NCBI GenBank assembly: GCA_030055235.1
Contig: JASGUW010000087.1
Coordinates: forward strand, 1-50,447
Direction of reading: 5' to 3'
From: Bacillota bacterium
GTDB lineage: Bacteria; Bacillota; Clostridia; Saccharofermentanales; Fastidiosipilaceae
DNA length: 50,447 nt
Shown: positions 9,558 through 50,447 of the stretch, in pieces
Position numbering within the stretch: the first letter of the stretch is position 1
Layout: each line of letters opens with the position of its first letter
The notes under the pieces: generated by a model
Told to the model about the DNA's origin: nothing
Database searches by the model: none
The model's input: only the letters and a program-made list of their open reading frames with translations
Position numbers and translations under genes: made by a program

Positions 9558-10399
9558 AATTTTGGATTACGTACTGTTTTACCCTGTGCGGCGTGCGCGG
9601 CTCTTCGTGGTCAAGTTAGCGTGATATCCAAATTGGTTTTTGGATTACACGCTATTTTGGCCCTGCGCGCCGTGCAGCGGCGCGCGCGGCCTCTTCGTGG
9701 TCAAAGTAGCCTGGTATCCAAATGGTTTTTTGGATTAGACGCTATTTTGACCAGAAACAGCTCCTTCGTGGTCAAAGTAGCCTGATATCCAAATGATTTT
9801 TTGGATTACACGCTATTTTGACCAGAATCGGGCCTTTCGTGGTCAAAGTAGCCTGCTATCCAAATGGTTTTTTGGATTACACGCTGTTTTGACCAGAAAC
9901 AGGCCTTCCGTGGTCAAAGTAGCCTGAAATCCAAATGGTTTTTTGGATTAGACGCTGTTTTGACCAGAAACAGCTCCTTCGTGGTCAAAGTAGCCTGCTA
10001 TCCAAATGATTTTTTGGATTACACGCTATTTTGACCAGAATCGGGCCTTCTGTGGTCAAAGTAGCCTGCTATCCAAATGGTTTTTTGGATTAGACGCTGT
10101 TTTGACCAGAATCAGGCTCTCCGTGGTCAAAGTAGCCTGCTATCCAAATCGTTTTTTGGATTACACGCTATTTTGTCCAGAATCGAGCCCTTCATGGTCA
10201 AAGTAGCCTGGTATCCAAATCGTTTTTTGGATTAGACGCTGTTTTGACCAGAATCGGGCCCTTCGTGGTCAAAGTAGCCTGAAATCCAAATGTTTTTTTG
10301 GATTACGCGCTATTTTGGCCAAAAACAGGCCTTCGTGGTCAAAGTAGCCTGATATCCAAATAATTTTTTGGATTTCTCTTCATTTTGACCACGAGGAGT
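9558..10399 (+). repeat. Tandem array 1 of a 71-bp hairpin repeat (about 12 units)
   Basis: The marker GGATTA/GGATT recurs at 9564, 9642, 9732, 9803, 9874, 9945, 10016, 10087, 10158, 10229, 10300 and 10370, giving an exact 71-bp period after the first units (78 and 90 bp). Each unit has a left arm like TTTGGATTAcACGCT then TTTTGACCA, a short loop, and a right arm TGGTCAAAgTAGCC then ATCCAAA. The arms are imperfectly complementary, so each unit can fold as one ~25-bp hairpin. Adjacent units also form ATCCAAA-6nt-TTTGGAT. The stem sequence is well kept; the loop varies and is GC-rich in the first two units. 71 is not a multiple of 3, so short ORFs across it are not genes. Confidence 0.92.
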
Positions 10400-10817
10400 C
10401 ACGAAGGGTCTGATTCCGGTGAAAGCAAACGCTCCAAAGTACCTGGTTTTTAGAAGGCCTTGTTTCTTCAAAAGGCTAATTCCTGAAGAGACGGTAAAAC
10501 CTGAGACAGGAGGTAATCTCCATGAATCATTTGCATAGATCCAAATGCCTTCCGCATCTATCCAGAGTTCTAAATATATGTAATGTATATCAGATATCTG
10601 GGTAGCCTGGGATGTATATCCGATCATGTTTGGGAGTGGTCCCTGGTCAGGGTGAGCGGTATAAACAAAAAACGCAGCGACCTGGTGAAACCCGCAGATG
10701 CCCGGAGGTGACACCATACTGCTGCCGCGATCCTGGAATATACCGGTACACTTGTGTTGTCGGTCGGCGGACTGGGCTTCGCAGAGAAAAAAGCCTTTGT
10801 GAATGATCACGTTTCGC
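10400..10817. other. Gene-free stretch, no feature recognised
   Basis: Between the first array and the TIM-barrel gene promoter. No ORF with a plausible start and no recognisable RNA or repeat was seen. A minus-strand open frame here runs into the array and has no family resemblance. Confidence 0.5.
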
Positions 10818-17101: not shown

Positions 17102-17232
17102 GCAAAATTTCAACCTTTCGCAGTTTTTGGGTGTTTCTGGTGCATATTTATTTGTGAAGTTGCATAAATCCTTATAATATGCGAGTTTGTGAATATTTAT
17201 GCAGTCGAATGTGCGAAAGGTTGAAATTTTGC
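17102..17232. repeat. 21-bp perfect inverted repeat flanking an AT-rich core
   Basis: Positions 17102-17122 and 17212-17232 are exact reverse complements (21 of 21). Inside, TGCATAAAT (17161-17169) and ATTTATGCA (17195-17203) form a second nested repeat. The core is AT-rich and contains TATAAT-like sequence. It resembles a small non-autonomous element or cruciform. The right arm plus flank (AAATTTTGCTCGAGA, 17224-17238) recurs at 40325-40339. It could belong to the IS downstream, but no matching right end was found there. Confidence 0.75.
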
Positions 17233-17424
17233 TCGAGATGAAAAGCGGGAGAAGGAGAATTCACACACTGGACAGCTGTTGGCGTCTTAGAATCCTGTTT
17301 TAGGACTCTATCTCCATCCTGTCTGCTTCATCTGACATACGATTTGCTTTTATGAAAAGCATTGACAGAACAGAAGATCTATCGTTTTGTTATCAAAAGT
17401 TTGCATTGCTTTGAGGAGGCATCC

Positions 17425-18996
17425 ATGGGTGTTCCAGAGGAGATCAGGAAGGTGCCGCGGCCAACCAATACTGTCGTGCTGGACAATGGCGGGGATGGCC
17501 CCAAGCGCTATGCGGTGCGGGAGCGCAGCAGCACCAAATACGTGCCGGGCGGTAACCCGCAGCCACGAAATGGACGGGTCATTGGGCATATCATTGATGG
17601 TGTGTTCGTTCCTGTGAAGGAAGAGCCCCAAGCGGAAGAGCTGCAAATGCTCTCCTATGGTGCAGCTGCCCTGGTGAATTCAGTCTCGCAGGACCTGTTG
17701 GCTGATCTGCGGGATGTCTTTCCCATTCAGGAGGCCCATAGCATCATGGCCATCGCTGCACTTCGTGTCATCAAGCCTGGCATTTCATTATCACGCCTGG
17801 CTTCTGCCTGTCAGCGCAGCTTTGTTCGTGTCTTTTATCCCGGTGCCGTATTATCGTCAGACTCGGTCAGCGAGCTGCTCGAAAATATCGGAATGGACGA
17901 AGAAAAGCGCAGGGAGTTCTTCCAGAAGCGCATGCGGGCAGCAGCTAAAGCGCATCACATCTTCATTGACAGTACGCTCAAGCGGAATAACAGTCAGGTG
18001 AACGACTTAATGGATTTCTCCTGCAGGGAGCGTGTGGAAGACAGCAGGGACATCTCCATTTTGTATGCGTATAGCTTTGAGACGATGGAGCCGCTTTGTG
18101 TCGGGGTTTTCCCCGGCGACAGTATTGATGCCACATCCTGCTCCACCTTTATCCGTGACAATGACATTTGCCGCGGCACGGTCATCCTCGATAAGGGCTT
18201 CGGGCCAGGCAGCATCGCCAATGAACTCAAAGAAAGACCGCAGCTGCACTATCTGACCCCTGTCAAGCCCGGCGACACACGGATCCGCACGTATGACATG
18301 CTCAACTATGAGGGCGTATTTAAGGATCAAGAGAATCTTGTTCTCTATAAGAAGGGCACACTGGAAAACGGGCATTTCCTGTATGCGCTTAAAGATGCCG
18401 AACAGGCAATTGTGGAGGAGTCCCGCTATCTGGCGAGCGTGGAAGATGGGGAGGAGTTTGACAAAGAAGCATACGCAAAGAAGCGCAACACCTTTGGTGT
18501 CGCCGTGTTTGAATCGGATCAGGATCTGCCACCGGCTGTCCTGTACCGCTCGTATAAAGATCGCTGGCGGCTCGAACATGTTTTCCAGCAGCATACAAAC
18601 GATCTGGAGCTTACGAAAACGAATGCAAAGGGCGTCTTCACCATCATCGGCTCTGAATTTATCAATTTCATCGCCACGATCGCAAGCGCTCGGATTTTGA
18701 AGAAAGCCGGCGGGCTGGGTCTTCTGAAAAAGCTCAGTTATGGCGACCTGATGGACGATCTTGCCTCTGCCTGGAGACGGGCTGACGCTCCGATAGAAGC
18801 CAAAAGCGATGACGAATACTGGGTGCATACTGACGATCTTGTGATGGAGGAGCTGGAGCTTCTTGGACTGTCTGTGCCCGTACTCAGGCCGGAGCCAAAG
18901 AAACGGGGCAGACCGAGAAAGAATTCTGACGTAAGTGAACCCAGGCGCCCAAGGGGGAGGCCGCGCAAGAACCCCGAATCAAACGATGCGCCCTAA
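17425..18996 (+). mobile_element. IS4-like transposase with C-terminal AT-hooks
   Basis: 523 residues from ATG 17425, preceded by GAGGAGG; an upstream TTG at 17362 has no such site. The DDE fold is visible: Asp182 in FIDSTLKRNN, Asp256 in VILDKGF, and the IS4/IS1634-type Y-x2-R-x3-E (Tyr377, Arg380, Glu384) in YKDRWRLEHVF. The C-terminus has two AT-hook-like motifs, KKRGRPRKN and RPRGRPRKN, which bind the DNA minor groove. The N-terminus starts GVPEEIRKVPRPTNT, as in a transposase group common in gut Clostridia (recalled). The frame is intact. The IS ends could not be defined: no inverted repeat pairs the two flanks. It lies just beyond the truncated end of the ATPase pseudogene, so its insertion may have caused that truncation. 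Confidence 0.85.
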
Positions 18997-21011: not shown

Positions 21012-21023
21012 AAGAGAGTGGTC

Positions 21024-21240
21024 AAATTTTTCGCTCCTGCCCTGATTTCGGGGCACCAGCGCAATTTTTCCACCCCTGGACAATTTTTTCGTTCCTGCCC
21101 CGATTCGGGGGCACAAACGCCCTTTTTTGGCCAGCTGTGGCCAATTTTTTCGTTCCTGCCCCGATTCGGGGGCACCAGCGCAATTTTTGTCCACCCTTGG
21201 ACAATTTTTCGCTCCTGCCCCGATTCCGTGGCAGCAGCGA
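21024..21240 (+). repeat. Second hairpin tandem array, ~58-61-bp unit, four copies
   Basis: The marker TCGYTCCTGCCC starts at 21031, 21089, 21150 and 21209. Each unit holds a TGCCCC...GGGGCA hairpin and, between units, a second small hairpin flanked by T-runs. The second hairpin differs between units but stays paired: TCCA/TGGA, TTGGCCA/TGGCCAA and GTCCA/TGGAC. These compensatory differences suggest selection on the structure. The sequence is unrelated to the 71-bp repeat. Confidence 0.82.
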
Positions 21241-21607: not shown

Positions 21608-21623
21608 CTGATTCTTCCCCTTC

Positions 21624-21805
21624 CGTCGCCTGCCGCCCGTCGCCTGTCGCCCGTCGCCTGCCGCCCGTCGCCTGCCACCCGTCGCCCGTCGCCTGCCGCC
21701 CGTCGCCTGCCACCCGTCGCCTGCCGCCCGCCGCCTGCCACCCGTCGCCTGCCGCCCGCCGCCCGTCGCCTGCCGCCCGTCGCCCGCCACCCGTCGCCCG
21801 TCGCC
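21624..21805. repeat. Heptamer minisatellite, 26 units
   Basis: Exactly 182 bp made of 26 copies of YGYCRCC (CGTCGCC, TGCCGCC, TGCCACC, CGCCGCC and variants), often alternating as 14-mers. It ends on the first base of the minus-strand stop codon of the esterase gene, so it fills the start of the 3' UTR. Seven is not a multiple of three, so it is unsuited to coding. Confidence 0.9.
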
Positions 21806-23313
21806 TAGCGCTTTGTCGTCGCGTTGAAAACCAGGTTTGCCGTACCCCAGCTCGCCGTGTAGGCCTGCTCGCCAAAGCCGATGGGGTAGGGTTCCACATC
21901 GGCCCGGTCGGTCAGGATCAGGTCGATAAGATGGATGAGATCCCGCACCTTCTCGGGGCTGTTTGCGACGTAGTCCTCGCCGTGGAGCAGGGTCGCGCCC
22001 TCCTGATAGCGGTGTCCGCCAAGGAAAACCAGATCCTGATAGCCCGGCCGCTCCAGAAGGCGGACGAAGCGCTCGAGATTCGCGCGAAACTCCGAAAGTG
22101 GCCTGGCATCCGGCACCTGCAGCCAGCCGCCCAGGGCATCGCCGGTGAACAGGACGCCGTGTGCCCGGTCGATGAAAACCAGAGAGCCCGGCGTATGGCC
22201 GGCGAGCTCCACCACCTCGATCACCACACCGCCGCCCAGGTCGATCGTGTCGCCGTCGCCGATATCGCGGCAGTCCGCAAGCTGCAGCCTAAGATCAGGC
22301 AGCATGTCTTCTCCCCGTGACCAGTCAAGCACCGGCGCCTCCGCATGCGACATATAGACAAGCTCGAAGCGATCCGCATGCCGCAGGTGATCGAGATGGG
22401 CGTGGGTCAGCGCCAGCTCCAGCGGCAGCTGCGGCTGCCCGATCAGCTCGCGGACGCAGGCGATGAGGTCGCCGTCACCCATGCCGGTGTCGATCACAAG
22501 TGCCTTGTCCCCACCCACGACGACGTAGCAGGTGTCGCCCTCGGCGTCGTCGATCTGCCACAGGCCCGGCCGGAGCCAGTCGACCTCGTAGCGCGCCGCC
22601 CGGGACTGGGCGAAGAGCCAGTCGAGCGCCTCGGCGTCGGCGTAGGCCGGCACCCAGGACGCGTGCGCCCCGACACCGCACTCCGCCTCCACGTAGCCGG
22701 CGGGATACTCGGTGTAGCGCACGTCGCGGTTGCCGGCGCCGCGCAGCGCGGTCACCATCGTCCTGGTCCCGGCCAGCCGCTCGCCCGTCAGCCCGAAAAA
22801 GCTCCCGGTCACCGGCACCACCGGATCGTCCTTCGCATGAAACGCCCAGACCGGCACATGGCGCGCCGCCCGCACCAGCTGCGGCTCCCCGCCGCCGCAG
22901 ATCGGCAGCGCCGCCGCGAAAAGCTGCGGATAACGGCAGATCAGGGCCCAGGTACCCATGCCGCCCATCGACAGGCCCGTCACGTAGACGCGCGCCGGGT
23001 CCACAGGCTCGGTCTCGAGCAGGCGCCGGATCTCGGCGACCAGCAGGCGCTGGAAACGATCGATATTCCAGGACTCACCCTCCGGGCACAAAGGCGCCAG
23101 CACATAGCAGGGCTGCCGTTCCGGCGTCGTAAACACCAGCCACTCGTCATTTCTCAGCAGCTGCCAGACGTCGGAGCCGCGCTCGCCGGCCCCATGCAGG
23201 AACAGGACCAGCGGATGGCGCACACCCTCCGCGGCCTGGGGCTCAAACCAGAGATAGTCAAGACAGCTGCCGTTGCTGTGCATCAGGCGGGCGGTGAAGG
23301 GAGATTGGGACAT
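21805..23313 (-). CDS. Fusion of alpha/beta-hydrolase (esterase) and metallo-beta-lactamase-fold domains
   Basis: 502 residues, ATG 23313 behind GGAGG. Residues ~1-235 form an esterase of the PHB-depolymerase/predicted peptidase type: oxyanion region FLHGAGERG (38-46), nucleophile Ser115 in GLSMGG, acid Asp162/163 in HAKDDPVVP and His217 in GAHASW. Residues ~243-500 form a metallo-beta-lactamase fold with HAHLDH (304-309), AGHTPGS (His373), FTGDALG (Asp392) and GGHRYQEG, all the usual metal ligands. There is no signal peptide, so it should be cytosolic. Both active sites look complete, so two hydrolytic steps on one ester- or lactone-bearing substrate are plausible. It lies 11 nt downstream of the propeller gene, forming an operon. 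Confidence 0.85.
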   Translation of the reverse strand: MSQSPFTARLMHSNGSCLDYLWFEPQAAEGVRHPLVLFLHGAGERGSDVWQLLRNDEWLVFTTPERQPCYVLAPLCPEGESWNIDRFQRLLVAEIRRLLETEPVDPARVYVTGLSMGGMGTWALICRYPQLFAAALPICGGGEPQLVRAARHVPVWAFHAKDDPVVPVTGSFFGLTGERLAGTRTMVTALRGAGNRDVRYTEYPAGYVEAECGVGAHASWVPAYADAEALDWLFAQSRAARYEVDWLRPGLWQIDDAEGDTCYVVVGGDKALVIDTGMGDGDLIACVRELIGQPQLPLELALTHAHLDHLRHADRFELVYMSHAEAPVLDWSRGEDMLPDLRLQLADCRDIGDGDTIDLGGGVVIEVVELAGHTPGSLVFIDRAHGVLFTGDALGGWLQVPDARPLSEFRANLERFVRLLERPGYQDLVFLGGHRYQEGATLLHGEDYVANSPEKVRDLIHLIDLILTDRADVEPYPIGFGEQAYTASWGTANLVFNATTKR

Positions 23314-28782: not shown

Positions 28783-29051
28783 TGGTCAAAACAGCGTGTA
28801 ATCCAAAAAACGATTTGGATACGAGGCTACTTTGACCACAAAGGGCCTGTTTCTGGTCAAAACAGCGTGTAATCCAAAAAACGATTTGGATACGAGGCTA
28901 CTTTGACCACAAAGGACCTGTTTCTGGTCAAAACAGCGTGTAATCCAAAAAACGATTTGGATACGAGGCTACTTTGACCACAAAGGGCCTGTTTCTGGTC
29001 AAAACAGCATGAAATCCAAAAAAAGATTTGGATACGAGGCTGCTTTGACCA
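28783..29051 (-). repeat. Tandem array 2 of the 71-bp hairpin repeat (four units, minus orientation)
   Basis: ATCCAAAAAA recurs at 28801, 28872, 28943 and 29014, an exact 71-bp period. The unit is the same as in array 1, read on the opposite strand, with nearly identical loops between copies. A GC-rich end (GGCCGCGCGCC) follows at 29056 onward, similar to the GC-rich variant units in arrays 1 and 3. The array sits between two convergent genes. Confidence 0.92.
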
Positions 29052-39123: not shown

Positions 39124-39960
39124 ATGAAAAGATATCTCTCACACCACAGCGCCCTCGGCTTCTGGGCCTTCCCGCTTGCCCACCAATACTACAGTGCCGA
39201 AATCAGGGAGGCCGGACAGAACCAGTTCACAGTATTCGATCGCAGTGATCGAGTGATGGTGGATGGCGTGTCCTCCTATTTGTGTTCACAGCCTATGCCT
39301 CGTAATGCTGTGTGCACGGTAGAGGGTAAACACGTTGTTTCACCACAATTGATGTATCTTCAACTCGTGCAAAAGCTCGGGCTGCATGAGGCGATTTTGC
39401 TGGGCGATCTTCTATGTGCCTGTCCTGAAAGTTCCTGGATGAAACCGATCATGACGCGAGCCGAGCTGCTTGCCTTTGCACAGGCGGCGGAAGATGTGAA
39501 AGGGCGACCGCTGGCACTTAGGGCGCTTAAGTATGTGAAGGAAGATGCTCGCTCCATCATGGAGTGCTTTGTCGACATGCTGCTTGCTCTTCCCAATCGA
39601 CATGGTGGGCTCGGATTGAGTGGAGGTGTCTTCAACTACCGGATAGAACTCGATCGCGAGGGGCAGCTGGCGCTGAGGCAGAGAGTCTGCTTTGTCGATT
39701 ACTGTTTTCCTGAGCGGAGAATCATCTATGAATACAACGGCGGACATCACGCCACGACGATCGATGAAGATTCGCGGCGTACGTTGGCGCTCCAGCGTCA
39801 GGGCTATACGGTGATTACTGTCACGAAAACACAGCTCTATAACCGCGACGCCCTGCACCAGCTGCTGCAGCATGTGGCAGAAGTTCATCAGTTACGTATT
39901 CGTATTCGCACGAAACACTATGAAGAAGGTATCAGAGCAATCCAAGCCCTTCTACCATAG
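39124..39960 (+). CDS. DUF559-like PD-(D/E)XK-fold protein with AbiEi-like N-terminus
   Basis: 278 residues from ATG 39124. The C-terminal part shows the very-short-patch/DUF559 layout: VDYCFPERRIIYEYNGGHHA, then RRTLALQRQGYTVITVTKTQLYNRDALHQLL. The catalytic set is Asp (VDYCF) and Glu (IYEYNG), with no obvious Lys at the usual spot. The N-terminal ~100 residues resemble the AbiEi/winged-helix type often fused to DUF559. Such proteins are common orphan genes in Bacillota and Actinobacteria, of unproven nuclease function. The ribosome-binding site is poor: AAGGAGG (39089-39095) is ~28 nt away. A partial copy of the 5' end lies immediately upstream, so the original start may have been lost. Confidence 0.65.
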   Translation: MKRYLSHHSALGFWAFPLAHQYYSAEIREAGQNQFTVFDRSDRVMVDGVSSYLCSQPMPRNAVCTVEGKHVVSPQLMYLQLVQKLGLHEAILLGDLLCACPESSWMKPIMTRAELLAFAQAAEDVKGRPLALRALKYVKEDARSIMECFVDMLLALPNRHGGLGLSGGVFNYRIELDREGQLALRQRVCFVDYCFPERRIIYEYNGGHHATTIDEDSRRTLALQRQGYTVITVTKTQLYNRDALHQLLQHVAEVHQLRIRIRTKHYEEGIRAIQALLP

Positions 39961-39977: not shown

Positions 39978-40193
39978 TGGTCAAGTTAGCCTGGTATCCA
40001 AATGGTTTTTTGGATTAGACGCTATTTTGACCAGAAACAGGCTCTTCGTGGTCAAAGTAGCCTGGTATCCAAATGGTTTTTTGGATTACGCGCTGTTTTG
40101 ACCAGAAACAGGCCCTTCGTGGTCAAAGTAGGCTGAAATCCAAATCGTTTTTGCCATTACACGCTGTTTTGACCCTGCGCGCCGTGCGCGCGA
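39978..40193 (+). repeat. Tandem array 3 of the 71-bp hairpin repeat (three units)
   Basis: GGATTA at 40012 and 40083 and the variant CCATTA at 40154 keep the 71-bp period. The stem arms match array 1 in the same orientation. The last unit is degenerate and ends in CTGCGCGCCGTGCGCGCG, the same GC-rich variant loop found in the second unit of array 1. It sits between two co-directional genes. Confidence 0.92.
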
Positions 40194-40367
40194 CCCCTGC
40201 CAGCCGCGCCCTCTTGACATGTACACCCGCCTCCCGGCATTCCTGCCGTGCAGCTGAAGTGGAATTCTGCGCCTCCGAAGGGGCTGTGGCTGTCTTTTTG
40301 CACAGCGTAACTGTACAAAGGCGTAAATTTTGCTCGAGAAACGGCTTTAGTAAGCAATCTTCAACTT

Positions 40368-50102: not shown

Positions 50103-50447
50103 GGGAAGCGTCTGGGTTGCACGTCAAGAATGACGGGAAGCGTGTGAGCATGCCAGGAAGACGGCTGGCAAGGGGAGAAAAGCAGCTTGTAGGTTTTTGG
50201 TGCTAAAACGAAGAAAAATACAACTGAATCAAAAACGGGCTGGATACTGGAGTCGTTCTTCGAGTTAAAAAGCTGACGGTGTTGTCCTGCAGATCGGGCA
50301 ATATCGGAAACTTTGGCCAGAGGTGGACAGCATCCTGTATTGTAGGTATAGGCAGATCCACTCAAGAGAGCGTGAATAGAGCAAACGTGAATAGAGTGAA
50401 GAAGAAGGATGATACCTCTTGTTGAGTGGATTTGCTTGGAACGAAGA
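50103..50447. other. Terminal gene-free region with a shared 20-mer
   Basis: After the MATE stop no gene is supported. AACTGAATCAAAAACGGGCT at 50222-50241 is identical to the reverse complement of 19304-19323 inside the ATPase pseudogene insertion. It may mark an element end. Confidence 0.5.

Follow-up and report, generated by a model that had tools for sequence, protein, structure and literature searches.

The closest described systems are the BOX elements of Streptococcus pneumoniae, with BOX-type elements also in S. suis. They are built as boxA-(boxB)n-boxC, with a variable tandem middle, terminal inverted repeats, and target-site duplications, and are presumed to be non-autonomous and mobilized in trans, with transcripts that are predicted to fold (PMC3049150). 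BOX elements also nest with other small repeats (PMC10969869). The arrays described here, made of a 71-bp hairpin repeat, most probably form the expandable middle of a mobile element that is MITE-like, non-autonomous, and organized like pneumococcal BOX. The modular A-(B)n-C layout with variable n is found in both, here as a left module, 1-13 units, and a right module, and the 71-bp element also has terminal inverted repeats, target-site duplications, and nesting. The end modules are larger, about 320 and 86 nt compared to about 50 nt in BOX (115- and 133-nt types also occur in S. suis), the middle unit is 71 nt long with a 56-nt hairpin and is repeated up to 13 times, and the duplication is about 9 bp. 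The unit subtypes with compensatory changes and the GC-rich, uncultured Bacillota host also set it apart. By layout and behavior, we class the element as a BOX-like MITE and not as a member of the BOX family; the two are likened by layout, with no sequence relation known.

To our knowledge, most MITEs lack an expandable tandem hairpin core, which the 71-bp element has. In other respects it resembles them, being non-coding, intergenic, and folded, with terminal inverted repeats and target duplications (PMC10969869). REP/BIME repeats with RAYT (GTAG/CGTC-tagged REPs, PMC3733652) are likewise imperfect palindromes that are dispersed in intergenic DNA, with several occurring in succession. The units here are 56 nt instead of 20-40 nt and almost always have one orientation per array; terminal repeats and target duplications are present, and no intact RAYT-type Y1 transposase was detected in the two genomes searched with PF01797. 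In the parts of the study considered here, stem-loop sequence families are genome-wide families of folding intergenic repeats, as in this case, and those parts do not show a tandem-array element of such structure (PMC2267715).

The window, the whole stretch of 50,447 nt that was analyzed, belongs to a 3.42-Mb MAG of 242 contigs (the host genome, G000). It was compared with a sister genome of the same genus, the GenBank MAG "Bacillota bacterium MAG114_KBP" (JASGUU01). An ungapped scan counted 18 complete hairpin units in the window, split over three arrays that lie where a sequence-only reading had placed them. Array 1 (9608..10391, plus strand) contains 11 complete 56-nt hairpins, with a first spacing of 90, a last spacing of 70, and 71 for the others. 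About 12 units had been claimed for it; these are 11 complete palindromes and one half unit, with just the 3' arm in its sequence, at the left end of the array (9560..9584, plus strand), with a GC-rich block in between (9585-9607). Neither a left nor a right module was recognized at array 1 in a module search of the window. Array 2 (28783..29051, minus strand) has four hairpins and no recognized modules, and in the sister genome it is missing behind the ortholog of its upstream gene. Array 3 (39978..40175, plus strand) has three hairpins and begins 17 bp past the stop codon of an ORF (39124-39960). Behind it lie a degenerate right module and right terminal repeat (TCCCGGCATTCCTGCCGTGCAGC; 40195..40252, plus strand; nhmmer E 1.5e-7 in the window). 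The right module and terminal repeat of a fourth, truncated element were found at the window end (50117..50198, minus strand; nhmmer E 7.6e-20), with a match to the terminal-repeat pattern at 50116-50138 and a partial hairpin unit after the right module. We infer that the window arrays are mostly decayed or orphaned copies of the element.

Array 1 is the exact point at which synteny with the sister genome is lost (window 9608-10812; L105 5647-7955; L057 4069-6490), by recombination between arrays or through a chimeric assembly. The host ortholog of the sister gene to the left of the element sits beside a different 71-bp array. The two MAGs are incomplete, with G000 fragmented partly at these arrays, and assembly may have influenced array lengths and the array 1 junction.

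In all, over 60 arrays were retrieved from the two species. The true unit is TGGTCAA-N42-TTGACCA, a 56-nt imperfect hairpin with arms TGGTCAAAGTAGCCTG..TATCCAAA-loop-TTTGGATTACACGCTGTTTTGACCA and a loop of about 6 nt, plus a linker of 15 nt. The sequence-only reading had set the hairpin half a period off, and its 15-nt "loop" is the linker between hairpins. What looked like a variable apical loop is this spacer, because the single-unit elements L153 and L165 contain exactly the 56-nt hairpin. The period of 71 bp was borne out: 232 of the 256 neighboring pairs in the fetched arrays were spaced 71, and the remaining 24 were mostly spaced 88-90, 70, or 72. The linker is conserved and, therefore, is not a CRISPR-like spacer: its copies share a consensus (GAAACAGGCCTTTCG) and are pairwise 0.73-0.84 identical, with means of 0.73-0.78 for the host genome. 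The outer heptamer, TGGTCAA/TTGACCA, is the most constant part of the unit. Units within one array were 0.917 identical, compared to 0.893 between arrays.

Copies of the unit occur well outside the window, throughout the host genome and in the sister species. With one unit as the BLAST query, the host genome gave at least 219 matches, and the gapped unit pattern had 127 exact matches there as opposed to 0 for the reversed pattern; thus, chance is excluded. The sister genome holds 114 diverged copies, most with 72-88% identity, and keeps the 71-bp period. When a covariance model of the unit was run on 188 genomes of the order, many copies were found only in the host and sister genomes. Two single weak matches came from another family of the order (G026 and G016), and these are tandem hairpins of 56 and 54 nt with other outer sequence. 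Exact-pattern scans of genome and viral contig collections gave no matches and, thus, neither a viral link nor any named relative besides MAG114_KBP, which had been reached through a protein of the window. With Rfam 15, the window had no match at the gathering score and an element had only sub-threshold, chance-type matches.

Four unit subtypes were distinguished, A, B, and C in the host genome and D in the sister genome, and they differ by paired changes. Among the inner pairs, 21-36 is CG, AU, or GC, 22-35 is CG or GC, and 23-34 is AU or CG. The middle pair 15-42 is AU or UA, and pair 8-49 forms a graded series of AU, GU, and GC. Covariation between paired positions is, therefore, present, with a score of 0.258 that exceeds both the shuffled controls (0.148 ± 0.009) and slid pairings (0.04-0.13). 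The compensatory changes represent few independent events because the unit subtypes are inherited. Evolution has kept the pairing of the hairpin rather than its exact sequence.

The two strands of the unit are not equivalent. Transition mismatches on the unit strand gave a G-U:A-C ratio of 618:119 (350:75, 122:24, and 146:20), counts that are inflated by shared descent. In 82-94% of units, the fold of the unit strand is better than that of its complement, with z about -6 to -7 against dinucleotide shuffles. The excess of G-U over A-C on one strand suggests that selection acts on the unit strand in its folded form, with RNA as the simplest case. A function in duplex DNA would not produce this asymmetry; RNA would, and single-stranded DNA might too. 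G-T pairs are also tolerated in single-stranded DNA, so the G-U asymmetry alone is no proof of RNA. Of the structured RNA proposed by the sequence-only reading, the structure gains support from base-pair covariation and strand asymmetry, and the RNA species itself is a prediction.

Next to the arrays, flanks of about 350 bp on the left and 90 bp on the right are conserved between copies and end sharply. They contain the left module of about 320 nt and the right module of about 86 nt. The ends are 24-bp imperfect terminal inverted repeats (TIRs), GGGTGCACGTCA-N4-TGTCGGGA. This pattern matched 50 times in one genome and 57 times in the other, as opposed to 0 for the reversed control, and it had four single matches among the other 186 genomes. 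Complete elements measure 362-949 bp. In those checked, of 525-857 bp, the longest ORF was 64-119 aa, and none is long enough for a transposase. Folding of the module consensus sequences was unconvincing (for the left module, z of -2.7 with the unit strand and -4.5 with its complement; none for the right module). Target-site duplications of about 9 bp were detected, with a mean 9-mer match of 0.73 compared to 0.52 for mispaired flanks (z 7.5; 0/300 permutations). Two were perfect 9/9 duplications, TTCTGGATG and CGTGCGCGT. When the joined flanks of six sister-genome elements were looked up in the host genome, two empty orthologous sites were found as continuous matches without the element (L090, 743 bp, and L103, 599 bp, vs G000:C6 and C193). 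One lies between a tRNA gene and a gene that, by our own reading, resembles rapZ, and one ahead of a small ORF. The duplications and the two empty sites show that the element inserts. The earlier suggestion of a replicating element that left the arrays as its tracks is therefore supported, in the form of a transposing element.

Among the host-genome arrays that are not at contig ends, 18 had both modules, 14 the left only, 3 the right only, and 10 neither. In the sister genome, both modules were present in 12 arrays and the right module in 3. Since 10 of the 45 host arrays lack modules, arrays may also spread or survive without ends. Several sister-genome copies are nested in an outer element that has TIR TACACGTCCGGCACCC and shows a duplication of the CCATTTTGG type. 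A MITE-like outer element with ends TACACGTCCGGCACCCTGTAGTTCA carries the 71-bp element at L092, L095, L097, L100, L102, L153, and L170 of the sister genome. At L059/L101, L083/L097, and L069/L094, the same intergenic region is occupied in the two species by oppositely oriented elements, which suggests insertion hot spots or inversion.

The dispersed copies are intergenic and occur in both orientations, and their orientation relative to genes is random (18/14/12/12). A fixed link to neighboring genes was rejected on this basis. No promoter-like site was found inside the one complete element scanned. Both results agree with the view that the arrays are not simple terminators or promoters.

The arrays could instead be multi-copy structured non-coding RNA genes with a cellular role, a gene family and not a parasite. 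Covariation and fold stability would be expected of such genes, and related-looking 56-nt tandem hairpins with other outer sequences exist in another family of the order. We consider this explanation unlikely, given the terminal repeats, target duplications, empty sites, and nesting, along with the missing promoter in the scanned element, the lack of an Rfam family at the gathering score, and the absence of the unit from most relatives.

For the mobile element, a partner transposase was searched in three families (PF01609, PF00872, and PF01797) across the two incomplete MAGs. None of the 19 DDE_Tnp_1 matches was bounded by the TIR pair, there were no matches to Transposase_mut, and Y1_Tnp (PF01797) gave one broken match in G000 and none in G001. 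Since no transposase with matching ends was found, the element behaves as a non-autonomous MITE; a living partner transposon is usual for a MITE and is not required. A DDE_Tnp_1 ORF lies in the window at 17362-18996, in surroundings without the terminal repeats of the 71-bp element, and the sister genome lacks the overlapping part 17168-18381 at the syntenic position. A cut-and-paste transposase of the DDE type that worked in trans, and that is no longer present or was not recognized, probably moved the elements, because the ends and the duplications of about 9 bp fit such an enzyme. Unit number would shift through unequal recombination or slippage, in keeping with the higher unit identity within arrays than between them. 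Folding of the unit strand as RNA, in transcripts that read through from neighboring genes, may be why the hairpins are kept; with no promoter-like site in the scanned element and random gene orientation, any RNA would come from read-through. The folded string would present RNase III-type stems and could protect, cleave, or attenuate the host transcript. Such effects of folded repeats have been reported for other folded MITEs, and the string of hairpins is expected to act on its host transcript.

Another explanation is that the hairpins work as single-stranded DNA in the movement or copying of the element, as sites for an HUH/Y1 (RAYT-like) enzyme or a structure-reading recombinase, as in REP or attC. 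The imperfect hairpins, conserved internal mismatches, and strand asymmetry are all compatible with this, and so is a hairpin length (56 or 62 nt) that is steadier than the sequence across families of the order. The ends and duplications, however, fit a DDE transposase and not Y1/HUH, and the only Y1_Tnp copy in the two genomes is broken, which makes this role decidedly unlikely. That the arrays are DNA-binding or chromosome-organizing sites, as the sequence-only reading had also offered, is highly improbable. A protein could read the constant outer heptamer, but the half sites are 42 nt apart within the hairpin and the inner arms covary. A duplex-reading protein would also not prefer G-U over A-C pairs on one strand, and the random gene orientation lends no support. 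A local slippage product or a CRISPR-like array would share the tandem layout and fixed period, but with over 60 arrays from two species, conserved rather than unique linkers, and a TIR-bounded carrier, its probability is negligible; the shared linker consensus and the copy number rule out both forms. Paired-position covariation and copies beyond the window, whose absence the sequence-only reading had named as arguments for slippage, are both present.

Tandem arrays of other hairpin families are also common in the host genome. A second family in the window (21019-21239) has a 60-61 bp unit with a 56-nt hairpin, TGGACAATTTTTTCG..TTTTTGTCCA, and an array is present at the orthologous place in the sister genome (L105 17583-17784). 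The window also has a GC-rich 14-bp tandem repeat (CCGTCGCCTGCCGC) of about 13.6 copies at 21623-21806. Two dispersed families with other sequences have units of 92 bp (L075, L086, L175, L182, and L275) and 70 bp (L060, L073, L080, and L276), with hairpins TGTCCAGAGCG..CGCTCTGGACA and TGACACAACTC..GAGTTGTGTCA. At L175, the 92-bp array adjoins a terminal repeat that is the same as that of the 71-bp element. The hairpins of these families (F60, F92, and F70) are 56 or 62 nt long, and F60 has the TGGNCAA/TTGNCCA ends and the 56-nt length in common with the 71-bp family. G026 has its own dispersed 92-bp arrays, TGCACACTTT..AAAGTGTGCA (L251, L255, L262, L263, and L249). Counting all families, palindromic arrays numbered 11 in 113 kb of arbitrarily chosen contigs of the host genome, 1 in 160 kb of the sister genome, 0 in 240 kb of two genomes of the same family, and 0 in 567 kb of other loci, mostly Clostridia. 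It is conceivable, though doubtful, that the 56-nt hairpin represents a structural class with deep roots. Compensatory change would then have turned a single ancestral RNA of tandem hairpins into many lineage-specific families (TGGTCAA, TGGACAA, TGCTCA, and TGCACAC types) across the order, with mobile elements of several kinds as carriers. The function of the hairpin would depend on shape and count and not on sequence, for example as a tag on host transcripts read by RNase III or a protein.

No published description of the 71-bp hairpin element was found in the literature searched, which does not prove that there is none. The arrays seem to fragment assemblies and mark synteny breaks, and this matters for reading MAGs of the group. 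The BOX-type plan of mobile ends and an expandable hairpin core, described in the cited literature for streptococci only, is extended to uncultured GC-rich Bacillota. The middle unit separates pairing from sequence: entire base pairs are exchanged between its subtypes, and length, period, and G-U polarity are unchanged. The old question of whether folded repeats matter at all, and if so as RNA or as single-stranded DNA, becomes directly testable.
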